Below, in pieces: positions 44,401-50,400 of a DNA stretch of 64,000 bases. The stretch spans positions 6,575,284 to 6,639,283 of the forward strand of contig NC_134526.1 of NCBI RefSeq assembly GCF_027942865.1. The letters run 5' to 3'. The translations under genes and the position numbers were made by a program. Origin of the DNA: Odontesthes bonariensis (lineage: Eukaryota; Chordata; Actinopteri; Atheriniformes; Atherinopsidae). Position 1 is the stretch's first letter. The number at the start of each line of letters is the position of its first letter. The notes under the pieces were generated by a model. It was not told the DNA's origin and ran no database searches. It worked only from the letters and a program-made list of their open reading frames with translations.

Positions 44401-47400
44401 ATATCCAATCATGTTACTGAATTTCTGAATTTACCTTAGATTGCATTCTTCTTCAATAAACAATGTATTTTTTGTTCATCTTTATTCAACATTGATCAAC
44501 TTTATAACTCTTATCAAAAAAGAGCATGTGGCACGTAAATAATAGCCCACATTATCATACTTGGTTTCTAACTTTAAATGAAGAATTGACTGGTTATTTA
44601 CTAATCATTTCACCCACAGAAATAACTTATAGCAGCTTTATTGAGACATTTTTGTGAAGCTGCATCAGGTTGTGTAAGGAAAAATACGTCCAAAGGACTG
44701 CTGTCAGTATAAACATACCATCAGTCATGCATTTACCACCCTCTATAAATATCATAGCATGGTGCAAAAATAAGCACCCAGCATAAACAAGGAACATGTG
44801 GCTTGAAAAAGAGACAAATCATAAATTAAAACACCCAAAGCTTGAAAGCAAGCCTCCCTACCTCAGTTTGCTTACCAGATATGGTTTCCTTTGATTAACG
44901 GCTTTGATAGTCCATTCTGGGCATCCATAAATGCATTTTGTATTGTTTCTGTCTTCGTTCAACAATGAATAACAGACATGAGTAAGGGACAAGTTCAAAC
45001 GCATATTGCAATTTCACATTCCTCTGAGCAACTGAACGCAAACCCCAACTGTAAACACCATGCTTGAGAGCTCAAATACAACTGACATCTGAAATGTTTT
45101 GCAAATATTGTGCTTTCTGTTCTTGGAAATCAGCAGATTTGTATTCTGAAATCAGATGTCATTGCTCATGTCAACACACTGACTTCCCTCGCTGATGTGC
45201 GTTGCTTTCGGCAGATTATCGGTTCAGCGTGATCTCACAGCAGCATGAGGAGTCAGCTCTTGGTGACGGAGGCCAGAGATCATCCACAGGCCACAGCAGG
45301 AGAAGCAGGGCAGTTCTGGGTGGAGGAGTAAAAATCAACACGCTGCCAGACAACATGACACGTGTAGTGGTGAGCGCTGCAACCACAGTGTTTCTTATGA
45401 CTGTAATGCTTTCAGGCATTTATTATGACTTTGGCCTGCAAGCTGATGTGTTTGTTTAAGTTTGAGTTAAACACTGCCCTCTTTTGGAAAGAAACATTTA
45501 CACTTCTACCAAAACTTGGAAAATCATTAAACAGCCTATGACTTAAGCGTGTTTATAGTGAATCCTCGGTGACACACTCTCTGAGCACGCCTGCCTTTAC
45601 AAACCTCTGATCTTTGGTGTTTTTCTGTCTGAAAGGAGGATTCTGGCAAGTACTACGCTTGGCAAAGCTTTGGCCCGGAGGACCAGCGCACACAGGACCT
45701 GTGGGTCGACATGAGCGATGTCCGACATGGCCAAGTTAGAATGCACGGAATCCTGTCAAATTCATACAAACAGGCCGTGGTGAGTCTCACACAGAAGTGT
45801 ATTATTATTGAATATTGAATTTGTACAGCATCAAAATCAGACTTTGAATTTGAAAAACCAACAGTGTCCAAAAAAAAATCAATTTCTAAAAAAAAAAATC
45901 AGTGCAAAAAAATTCAACATCTAAATAAAAATTCTGTGGAAAAATATTCAACTTCAAAAAATTTAATTAAAAAAATTAAACTTCAAAAACTTCAGTGGAA
46001 AAAAAAAATTCCACTGAATTTTTTTTTCGAAGTTGAATTTTTTTTTTTACACTGTTGGTTTTTCAAATTCAAAGTCTGATTTTGATGCTGTAAAAAATCA
46101 ATATTAGAAATTCGTATTCAAACTCTGATGGCACAGGAAAAACTTCCATATAAGTGCGCTTTCTTTGGGAATAATTGATTTGAAAAAATGATTAATTCAT
46201 ATTGTGATATATCAGATATGCACAGCTGAAGAGCTCCCAAATTCAAATCTACCACTGAGCTATACCCTGATATAAATCCACGCCTCTAAGAGTAATTCTT
46301 AAGTCATTAACTTTTTGTTTTGTGCTCAGTTTTCCTGCAAATTTAAAAAAATACTGTCTGGGAGTAGTTCCTTGTAGCCAGAGCACTGACCCTCTGTGCT
46401 TTAAAAGGTTTAAAAATGTTGACATGGAATCCAGATATTCCATGTTTAACAGAAGAAAGATGTCCATCGCAGATCAAGTCCAGCCAGATCAACTAAATGT
46501 GCACGATAATCAGGGTAAAAAAGCCACTCAGATGTCTGTTTCTTATACCTGAAAACTGTGATGAAGGGATGCAGAGAGCTTTCTTCTTACCTTAGAAGCA
46601 TGGGATCACTTAATTACTTAATTTTGAATACGAATCACGGACACAGTCCTAAAAGTCCTTTCGACTGGAACATTGAACCTCAGTTTTAATTTAGTGTCTG
46701 CCCTGTGTATAACCCTGATATACTTTCGTATTTCTTATATTAGTAGACTGAGCAGTCATTGAGTGTGGTCTAACAGTTTGTGGGCAACATTAAGTACAAA
46801 GCTCGGCTCCAAAGTCAATACAAAGCAAGTCATAGATCTGCAATCTGCTATTTCACCATTAAATGCCACCACAACTTGTACGCTCATTCAGTTTTTAATC
46901 TGAAGGAGTGCACAATGCATTGGGATAGATTCACCAGTGCTGCTTTTCTTTGTGGAGGTTACGATAAATATTGCATCTACCATCATTACTCAGTCAGTGA
47001 GCACCCAGAGTTCAACTGGGGGCAAATTGTTCTGTATCAGAATGTGTCCCATTGTTTGGGGGTATAGCTCAGTGGTAGAGCATTTAACTGCAGATCAAGA
47101 GGTCCTCAGTTCAATTCTGGGTGCCCCCTTGAATTATGACACTTTCAGGTTAGTTATTCTCTCAATGCTTAAACTTAAACGAGTTGAGAAAACTTTCCAA
47201 GTTAAATATCACCTTTGATAACATAGGAAGTGTCACCCTGCTTGTTTGAAAGCTGTATAGTTCCTGATATGGACAAGCATCCTGGTTCACATGTTGCTTA
47301 TTTTCTATTTTGAACTATTGCAGTAATCGTGTGGTGGAACATGGAAGAAAAGTTTACTGACAGACAGACAATGAGAGCTCATCCATATGGGTTTATAACA

Positions 47401-50400
47401 AAACTCATGGTGAGTTTTATAAGAAAACATGGATTTTTCATGCCTGACTCTAACCCACAGCAGTGTGAAATATTAAACAACTGCTTTGCAATATTGTAAT
47501 TGATGGGACATGAACTTTGGTGGCAGTCCATGGTGTAATATCCTGTCCAGGCTGCCCTTAGATACATTGATTTAATTGATCAACTCCATGGATCTGGGTG
47601 CCCCCTTAATTATGACACTTTCAGGTTAGTTATCTTGTCAATGCTTCAATTTAAAAGAGTTGAGAAAAGGTAAATGTCACCTTTGATTACATAAGAAGTG
47701 TCACCCTGCGTGTTTGAAAGCTGAACAGTTCCTGATATGGCCAATCATCAGCAAAAGCCTGTTTTAAATGTTTGCTTTTTACACATTGTCATAATTCCAG
47801 GGGGCACCCAGAATTGAACTGAGGACCTCTTGATCTGCAGTCAAATGCTCTACCACTGAGCTATACCCCCCTTACACAGCTGTAGCTGCACAGATAGATT
47901 CCCAATCAATAATCTGAAGGTTAAGTTCCATAAGGCAGAAGCAGTGACCATCAGTTTCCAATGTTAAGACACACAAAGTTATTGATAAAATGCATACAGC
48001 TGTGTAAGGGGGGTATAGCTCAGTGGTAGAGCATTTGACTGCAGATCAAGAGGTCCTCAGTTCAATTCTGGGTGCCCCCTGGAATTATGACACTTCCACT
48101 TCTAGCTATCTTGTCAATGCTGAAACTTAAAGGAGTTGAGAAAACTTTCTAAATTGCCTTTAGATACATTGATTTAATTGGTCACTTCTCTAAGTTAAAT
48201 GTCTCCTTTGATTACATAGGAAGTGTTATGCCCATCACCCGACAAACGATGCAACCTTAAAGGTGTGCGCTGGCCTTTATGTTATCAAAGGTGACATTTA
48301 ACTTGTAAAGTTTTCACAACTCCTTTAAGTTTAAGCTTTGACAAGATAACTAATATCAAAGTGTTATAATTACAGGGGGCACCCAGAATTGAACTGAGGA
48401 CCTCTTGATCTGCAGTCAAATGCTCTACCACTGAGCTATACCCCCCTTACACAGCTGTAGCTGCACAGATAGATTCCCAATCAATAATCTGAAGGTTAAG
48501 TTCCATAAGGCAGAAGCAGTGACCATCAGTTTCCAATGTTAAGACACACAAAGTTATTGATAAAATGCATACAGCTGTGTAAGGGGGGTATAGCTCAGTG
48601 GTAGAGCATTTGACTGCAGATCAAGAGGTCCTCAGTTCAATTCTGGGTGCCCCCTGAAATTATAACACTTTCAGGTTAGTTATCTTGTCAATACTTAAAC
48701 GAGTTGAGAAAACTTCTAATTTAAATGTCACCTTTGATTACATAGGAAGTGTCACCCTTCTTGTTTGAAAGCTGTATTGTTTCTAAGATCAAGGGTGTAT
48801 AGCTCAGTGGTAGAGCATTTAACTGCAGCTCAAGAGGTCCTCAGTTCAATTCTAGGTGCCCCCTGGAATTATAAAAAGTAAACATTTAAAACAGGCTTCA
48901 CTGATGCTTGGCCATATTAGGAACTATACAGCTTTCAAACAAGCAGGGTGATACTTCTTAAGGCCGGCGCACACCTTTACGATTCGTGTACGATTTTGTC
49001 AGCCCGATGACTTCGCATGGGAATCGTAAAGGTGTGCGGTAGCAGCCGACAAACGATTTTGTCGTTTGTCGTTTCATCGGATCAAATCAAACATGTTTGA
49101 TATTTCCGTACGGAGTTTCCTTGTGCCGAATACAATCGTATGTGTGTGCGGTCTCTGTTCCCATGTCATCGCGCAGGATTATTTAAACAGCCAATGGGAA
49201 TAGCGCACTTAGTCACGTTGGACGACTACGACACAAACATGGCTGCCTCCAGTTTGAAAGTCACGTGATTTGTGGCTTCCTATTTCGGTCATGTGATAAC
49301 ATTCGGTCAAAAGAGTGTGCAAGTGTGTGCGGCGGACGTGCAAGCGTGTCAAATACTGTCCGAATTGTTATGCCGATCACCCGACAAACGATGACATCGT
49401 AAAGGTGTGCGCCGGCCTTTATGTTATCAAAGGTGACATTTATCTTGTAAAGTTTCCTCAACTCCTTTAAGTTTAAGCTGTGACAAGATAACTAATATCA
49501 AAGTGTTGTACTTCCAGGGGGCACCCAGAATTGAACTGAGGACCTCTTGATCTGCAGTCAAATGCTCTACCACTGAGCTATACCCCCCTTACACAGCTGT
49601 AGCTGCACAGATAGATTCCCAATCAATGATCTGATGGTTAAGTTCCATAAGGCAGAAGCAGTGACCATCAGTTTCCAATGTTAAGACAAAGGAAGTCATT
49701 GATAGAATGCATGTAGTTGTGCAAAGGGGGTATAGCTCAGTGGTAGAGCATTTGACTGCAGATCAAGAGGTCCCCAGTTCAAATCTGGGTGCCCCCTGGA
49801 ATTATGACCCTTTCAGGTTAGTTATCTTGTCAATGCTTAAACTTAAAGGAGTTGAGAAAACTTTCTAAGTACTGAGAAAAAGACAAATATAGTGTTTAAA
49901 GCAAGGACAGGCTTCACTGTAGATATTTGTTGGTAGAACTAAAGTTGAGAAGTGATCAATTAAATCAATGTATCTGAGGGCAGCCTGGACAGGATATTAC
50001 ACCATGGACTGCCACCTAAGTTCATGTCCCATCAATTACAATATTGCAAAGCAGTTGTTTAATATTTCACACTGCTGTGGGTTAGAGTCAGGCATGAAAA
50101 ATCCACGTTTTCTTGTAAAACTCACCATGAGTTTTGTTATAAACCGATATGGATGAACTCTCATTGTCTGTCTGTCAGTAAACTTTTCTTCCATGTTCCA
50201 CCACACGATTACTGCAATAGCTCAAAATAGAAAATAAGCAATATGTGAACTAGGGGGGCACCCAGGGGGCACCCAGATTTGAACTGAGGACCTCTTGATC
50301 TGCAATCAAATGCTCTGCCACTGAGCTATACCCCCCTTTCTGAAGTGATTTACCTGTGCAATTTTTCCACCGCTGCTATCTGCTCCACTGTAAAGACAAA

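Follow-up and report, generated by a model that had tools for sequence, protein, structure and literature searches.

Clustering of transfer RNA (tRNA) genes is already known from fish: 65% of the tRNA genes and pseudogenes of zebrafish and 87% of those of stickleback lie in clusters, and both the degree of clustering and the number of tRNA genes vary widely between fish genomes (PMC2888827). Here we describe an array of nine tRNA-Cys(GCA) copies within an intron of a gene that is very probably plxdc1, in a 64-kb window of the Odontesthes bonariensis genome (contig C26, positions 6575284-6639283; coordinates without a contig name are window positions). Like the teleost clusters described in 2010, in which many tRNA genes are less than 1 kb apart, this locus is a cluster, and its head-to-head array is a variant of that type. 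In contrast to the pairs of Danio, which are nearly all parallel and mostly heterogeneous, a single isotype is arranged head to head here, with a related spacer at several sites (PMC2888827). In primates, a head-to-head bias is found among anti-parallel pairs of tRNA genes (PMC2888827), and some human tRNA genes retain synteny (PMC7567086).

The tRNA-Cys(GCA) cluster of Arabidopsis chromosome 5, which is largely silent, resembles the present array in isotype and in its repeating units (approximately 0.4 kb in Arabidopsis). Further shared features are a pseudogene at the head, overlap with annotated transposable elements and a copy number that varies. The Arabidopsis cluster differs in having a Helitron annotation and RNA polymerase III (Pol III) termination signals, in contrast to the palindromic doublets, terminator-less arm and hAT-like ends (at two sites) found here (PMC10701932). 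The tandem arrays of Entamoeba also have tRNA genes as their units, a comparison made through their mention in PMC2888827. The present arrangement is not described in the papers cited here, as far as covered, or in the titles and opening lines of abstracts found, mostly outside the subscription literature, on PLXDC1 with tRNA-Cys, tRNA-Cys-GCA clusters or synteny, inverted repeats, intronic arrays, or transposon-captured or head-to-head tRNA genes. Taken as a whole, the locus is likely to be a worn local array of a dispersed tRNA-Cys doublet repeat, with a terminator-less arm and a spread helped by transposons.

Structure of the tRNA-Cys array

ARAGORN and the Rfam model RF00005 concur on nine tRNA-Cys(GCA) copies of 72 nt each at 47058-50335, on both strands (c1 to c9: + - + - + + - + -), with three head-to-head pairs whose spacers are 138 nt each. 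The features are as follows; scores in bits are from Rfam, and all tRNA-Cys copies listed with a bare score were also called by ARAGORN.

34610-34681, minus strand: solitary tRNA-Cys between arl5c and plxdc1, 72.2 bits, run of five T (T5) at +13
43562-43638, minus strand: decayed tRNA-Cys relic, covariance model, 39.3 bits, E 2e-7
43914-43987, minus strand: decayed tRNA-Cys relic, covariance model, 28.6 bits, E 8e-5
46248-46267, minus strand: exact 20-nt piece from the 5' half of the tRNA, a probable relic, blastn E 3e-6, no covariance-model match
47058-47129, plus strand: tRNA-Cys c1, one anticodon-stem mismatch, 60.7 bits
47281-47582, plus strand: inverted-repeat arm, first copy, 302 nt, 97% complementary to 49953-50254
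47593-47606, plus strand: truncated tRNA-Cys 3' end, last 14 nt, blastn only
47799-47870, minus strand: tRNA-Cys c2, pair 1 minus arm, 67.9 bits
47871-48008: head-to-head spacer of pair 1, 138 nt, with partial relatives of 54-70 nt at C26:10.49, C26:15.15, C23 and C18
48009-48080, plus strand: tRNA-Cys c3, pair 1 plus arm, 67.9 bits
48374-48445, minus strand: tRNA-Cys c4, pair 2 minus arm, 67.9 bits
48446-48583: spacer of pair 2, 138 nt, identical to that of pair 1
48584-48655, plus strand: tRNA-Cys c5, pair 2 plus arm, 67.9 bits
48793-48864, plus strand: tRNA-Cys c6, decayed, three stem mismatches, 48.8 bits
48961-49418: inserted element, 458 bp, 23-bp perfect inverted ends, TTA target duplication
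49516-49587, minus strand: tRNA-Cys c7, pair 3 minus arm, 67.9 bits
49588-49725: spacer of pair 3, 138 nt, 12 differences from that of pair 1
49726-49797, plus strand: tRNA-Cys c8, pair 3 plus arm, 71.4 bits
49953-50254, minus strand: inverted-repeat arm, second copy
50264-50335, minus strand: tRNA-Cys c9, 65.6 bits

All nine copies reach the Rfam gathering score with a cloverleaf bearing the GCA anticodon (E-values 2e-7 to 1e-13 in the 64-kb search): one scores 71.4 bits, five identical copies score 67.9, and the remainder score 65.6, 60.7 and 48.8. Complete stems (21/21 standard pairs by stem count) are present in seven of the nine; at 65.6-71.4 bits these are close to the 72.2 bits of the solitary tRNA-Cys, and most copies thus do not score as pseudogenes. 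The array is real, and the initial annotation was accurate with respect to copy number, strands, 138-nt spacing and palindromic layout, and to its two damaged copies (47058 with one stem mismatch and 48793 with three, the other seven being foldable); the solitary gene was absent from its list. The largest gap between successive copies is 669 nt, within the limit for a homogeneous cluster (less than 1000 nt, one isotype). Covariance-model matches below E 0.5 in the window consist only of the nine array copies, the solitary copy and two relics, eight weaker rows (E 0.56 to 6.5) having been discarded. The truncated 3' end, the 20-nt fragment and the two relics point to a long birth-and-death history at the plxdc1 locus.

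Over their full 282 nt, pairs 1 and 2 are identical; pair 3 shows 14 substitutions and no insertions or deletions, so the three equal spacings are not independent. In the 40 bases directly outside pairs 1 and 2, only 23 and 18 agree in ungapped comparison. Pair 1 is surrounded by perfectly complementary 98-nt arms with 110 nt between them; as a single strand of DNA, this palindrome folds at -135.8 kcal/mol (shuffled mean -34.2). The longer 302-nt inverted arms bracket the array, and a 14-nt stretch, TACAGCTGTGTAAG, is found beside both arms of pairs 1 and 2. The inserted element, which we take to be PIF/Harbinger-like, interrupts a spacer that is 190 nt long once the element and one TTA are removed. 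Reversed, this spacer can be aligned with the one of 192 nt at 47607-47798, the two agreeing at 157 of 181 ungapped positions. A regular tail-to-tail spacing of 192 nt was considered and rejected: the true value is 190 when the TTA duplication is respected, and the equality of 192 and 192 was due to chance.

A dispersed tRNA-Cys repeat family

The initial annotation had presented so dense an array as unusual for a single intron, and this part is incomplete: homologous arrays are found on C18, C23, C26 and C29, and comparison between them places the plxdc1 array as a local, partly decayed member of a dispersed head-to-head tRNA-Cys repeat family. The 945-Mb assembly (187 contigs) was searched with the first 47 nt of the tRNA, allowing up to three mismatches. 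This pattern occurs at 87 places (44 forward, 43 reverse). Read backward, it has no match in the 945-Mb genome, and exact-pattern scans of viral and bacterial/archaeal collections also gave none, as expected for a fish repeat. A more lenient search, covering the window and further stretches that together contain all 87 places, yielded 103 matches. Of these, 89 are full-length (70 or more aligned bases, the relic at 43562 among them), and all stems are kept in 71 of the 89 (7+44+20).

The full-length copies form 30 head-to-head pairs, on C18, C23, C26 and C29, with spacers of 122 (two pairs), 123 (three), 124 (21), 134 (one) and 138 nt (three); outside the plxdc1 array and the 27.4-Mb array of C29, 20 of 34 full-length copies belong to no such pair. 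Of the ten matches listed for the 138-nt spacer, three belong to the array itself; the other seven are partial, cover 54-70 nt at 80-83% and fall at C26:10.49 Mb, C26:15.15 Mb, C23:23.09 Mb and C18:31.19 Mb, each adjoining head-to-head tRNA-Cys copies. C29 is not among the spacer matches listed and joins the family through a spacer that can be aligned. The last 100 nt of the 302-nt arm have 35 matches listed (including the query and its mirror copy), with arrays on C18, C26 and C29 and none listed for C23.

Over half of the full-length copies (46/89) are held by a 36-kb array at C29:27399714-27436238, in which the pairs are mostly 124 nt apart and the unit is approximately 1.43 kb. Within this array, a higher-order repeat of 7.1 kb is marked by a variant pair, whose spacer is 58 nt long and whose minus copy is damaged, at 27410589, 27417686, 27424765 and 27431862. 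Approximately 575 bp of the C29 unit (unit positions 627-1201) are missing from the C18 unit, and part of this segment matches C23.

Two arm types and Pol III termination

The two arms of the C29 pairs have different 3' flanks. The T-type flank, GCTTTTCCAAGG, stands behind almost every minus copy, and the R-type flank, ATAATTATGACACTATC, behind the plus copies; the R type has no TTTT for approximately 300 nt. Arms were typed by flank motif, using motifs that we typed ourselves, in 96 copies with at least 60 aligned bases. A TTTT lies within 20 nt in 0/41 R-type copies, 6/22 copies of neither type and 27/33 T-type copies; the last figure counts for less than it seems, being partly built in because some T motifs contain TTTT, and the 0/41 is unaffected. 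In plxdc1, eight of the nine copies begin their flank with the R type, on either strand, c9 is of neither type, and the T flank is found in none. In transcripts, a 3' trailer starting with GGAATTAT would be expected to mark plxdc1 copies, ATAATTAT or GTAATTAT other R arms and GCTTTTCC T arms. R flanks on either strand in eight of nine copies, together with the shared 14-nt stretch, suggest replacement of the T arm by a copy of the R arm, made through the palindrome.

Behind c1 to c9, the first TTTT is at +172, +43, +231, +230, +339, +130, +204, +311 and +30, respectively: within 20 nt in no copy, within 60 nt in two, and not before +130 in seven. The T5 of the solitary tRNA-Cys begins at +13. 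The median background distance to TTTT is 77 for the window, where 32% of positions have a TTTT within 40 nt, and 118 for this intron, where 24% do; the array flanks therefore look no richer in terminators than arbitrary sequence. The term "factory" used in the initial annotation is unsupported, because eight of the nine copies have the terminator-less flank and none has the terminating one. With respect to promoters, the A box is alike in all nine array copies and the solitary gene (10/10), and the B box of the nine (AGTTCAATTCT or AGTTCAAATCT) is unlike the GGTTCAAATCC of the solitary gene; the C29 arms share the AGTTCAAATCT form. The solitary tRNA-Cys seems to be a better gene than the array copies.

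The R flank is similar from site to site. Of ten aligned copies, seven have their first TTTT at +281 to +345: four of these share one aligned position, two deviate from it by a few bases, and plxdc1 c8 has its TTTT elsewhere. The C23 copy has a TTTT at +60, and two copies have none within 349 nt. The TTTT-free stretch of approximately 300 nt says little for or against selection: the next TTTT is at least 200 bases off at 19.5% of window positions and 33% of those in this intron, the copies share ancestry, and C23 has its TTTT at +60.

hAT-like ends at two array sites

End pairs were sought at eight array sites and two further tRNA-Cys sites, allowing up to two mismatches per end and one in the duplication. 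The array at C18:31191869-31194273 lies between TAGGGCTG and CAGCCCTA ends with an exact 8-bp duplication, GTTGTTTG (8/8), a rare event by our estimate (chance approximately 0.001 among 6 x 8 end pairs). The array at C23:23085285-23087387 lies between similar ends with the duplication CTATTTTG/CTATCTTG. No such end pair was found at the other sites, including plxdc1; at C29:27.40 and 28.98 Mb the search covered little flank on one side. From their hallmarks, we take the C18 and C23 ends to be hAT-like. The C23 array edges carry element positions 1-40 and 400-633 (blastn), and fragments of that element family directly adjoin the arrays at C29:27.40 and 25.99 Mb and occur within those at C18 and C23. 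Elsewhere, array edges fall at varied places of the unit, unlike those of a single element with fixed ends.

The ends at C18 and C23 suggest that spread was assisted by transposons; array DNA may have been captured in post-excision repair, an attractive but unproven route. It is quite improbable, as a more specific proposal, that hAT-like transposons spread a captured tRNA-Cys doublet as a mobile family of tRNA genes, of which one arm would produce tRNA-Cys and the mirror, terminator-free arm a tRNA-headed Pol III RNA of approximately 375 nt ending at the TTTT near +300.

Origin and activity of the array

We propose that the repeat unit is a head-to-head tRNA-Cys(GCA) gene pair, approximately 122-138 nt apart, and that its copies would stem from DNA-level tandem and inverted duplication, together with conversion between the arms of palindromes, rather than from retroposition; the sharing of 5' flanks upstream of the gene speaks for copying at the DNA level. 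The fuller unit is asymmetric, with one arm able to stop Pol III at once and the other predicted to read on for hundreds of bases; in plxdc1, where the terminating arm is not seen, it may have been overwritten by its mirror image. Lying in an intron of a gene transcribed by RNA polymerase II (Pol II), the plxdc1 array would probably supply little mature tRNA-Cys, if any. The hAT-like transposons that bound arrays at two sites probably assisted the spread of the family from chromosome to chromosome.

Ten hand-chosen doublets were aligned, one standing for the C29 array; the two from plxdc1 are not independent of each other, nor are the two from C26:15.15. Compared with the C29 unit, tRNA bodies are less divergent than the spacer in all nine cases, with Fisher p<0.05 (uncorrected) in seven, the exceptions being C29:25.99 Mb and C26:15.15 Mb pair b. 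Across sites, these ten doublets agree better in the middle of the spacer (88-92%, 20-column windows) than towards the edges (59-79%), and a shared two-way promoter part is possible.

Several points weigh against the proposed worn, transposon-helped doublet repeat. Conservation of the tRNA bodies could be explained by selection or by ectopic conversion alike. End pairs with duplications are present at only two of eight array sites and not at plxdc1, the C23 duplication matches at 7/8 positions (chance approximately 0.07 among 14 x 13 pairs, weak by itself), and the C18 and C23 arrays join hAT sequence in different ways. A missing TTTT is no proof of silence, because a T-stretch within 15 bp is found in just 50-60% of human tRNA genes (PMC11346459); in yeast, weak terminators are helped by RNA structure and Sen1 (PMC9278858).

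The array could instead be dead, its pseudogenes held alike by gene conversion alone, which we regard as possible though doubtful. The identity of pairs 1 and 2 extends through the non-coding spacer and gives way to differing bases just outside, truncated and decayed relics lie close by, and c6 has changed equally fast in its tRNA (4/72) and its flank (6/62 versus c2), with no body/flank contrast. Across sites, however, tRNA bodies change less than spacers, and the 71 of 89 full-length copies that retain all stems also speak against a dead array.

A working, selected cluster, in which the intronic copies raise the supply of tRNA-Cys through non-canonical termination, is unlikely. It would fit the intact stems of seven copies, the 10/10 agreement of the A box, the frequent lack of nearby T-stretches in human Pol III genes (PMC11346459), and the identity of five copies over 72 nt despite divergence of 10-63% between their aligned 3' flanks (rearranged flanks account for the upper values). 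It is opposed by the absence of TTTT before +30 anywhere and before +130 in seven of nine copies, by the presence elsewhere of copies with a nearby TTTT (C26:6609893, C26:9329437 and the T arms of C29), and by the departure of the B box from that of the solitary gene, tempered by the AGTTCAAATCT form being shared with C29.

An assembly artefact (inverted collapse or false duplication), which the 282-nt identity of pairs 1 and 2 might suggest, is very improbable because the array lies inside a 34-Mb contig and its flanks differ from copy to copy; related arrays with the same layout also occur on four contigs. Insertion of tRNA-derived short interspersed elements (SINEs) is barely credible despite the terminator-less tRNA head followed by a flank shared over approximately 300 nt, because homology runs 5' of the tRNA through the spacer and does not begin at a transcription start at the tRNA head, the strands alternate with inverted arms, and the tRNA part is an intact cloverleaf.

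Host gene and genomic neighbourhood

The worn doublet array lies in a 5,585-nt intron between two exons that were read by eye, in frame and with AG/GT sites:

45636-45779, plus strand: plxdc1 exon upstream of the array
51365-51434, plus strand: plxdc1 exon downstream of the array

Among the plxdc1 exons found, the one at 45215-45369 lies furthest upstream. The joined host exons match Nidogen-like (E 7e-4) and Plexin-repeat (E 0.006) in Pfam, both below the curated cut-offs, and the name plxdc1 is taken from the human protein sequence and the neighbouring arl5c. That the host is plxdc1, as initially annotated, is very probable; the numbering of the intron as intron 3 is only provisional, because exon 1 was not located. 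Upstream is an arl5-type gene (frame ending at 33634), whose joined exons match Arf (E 2e-41) and, among solved structures, 1yzg best ("ADP-ribosylation factor-like 8", E 2e-56), followed by ARL5 entries; arl5c is our own name for it. No match came from Pfam scans of the forward strand in which stops were read as X (two frames at 32-47 kb, three at 50-64 kb), plausibly because the exons are short. Human tRNA-Cys genes presumably also lie near PLXDC1 and ARL5C on chromosome 17, and this would put tRNA-Cys between the same gene pair in human as in fish. In horse, CACNB1, ARL5C, PLXDC1 and LASP1 are listed together (PMC7341496).

An AT-rich imperfect palindrome of approximately 300 nt (45811-46105) lies just past a plxdc1 exon, and a short element with 46-bp perfect inverted ends occurs at 51113-51307 and 53874-54193, one copy stopping 57 nt before a plxdc1 exon. 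The window also contains a vertebrate telomerase RNA gene (42634-42979, minus strand; Rfam RF00024, 98.8 bits), with its CTAACCCTAA template at 42952-42961, 2.2 kb upstream of the exon at 45215-45369. Reading frames include an EF-hand frame that we take to be recoverin-like (6177-6701, minus strand), a GSG1-like frame (13302-13682, plus strand; Pfam GSG-1, E 4e-36) and, by eye, long interspersed element (LINE) reverse-transcriptase ends and a Tc1-type transposase at 18498-18851 (plus strand), 53067-53339 (minus strand) and 7641-8242 (minus strand).

Significance

The present family bears on the route by which tRNA gene number changes in fishes. One isotype can be traced at several chromosomal sites through a unit with a recognisable spacer, two arm types and inserted elements, so that duplication, inverted-arm conversion and help from transposons can be distinguished. 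The terminator asymmetry provides a natural comparison of Pol III genes with nearly the same body and different ends, and the plxdc1 array pits possible Pol III read-through against Pol II splicing within one intron.

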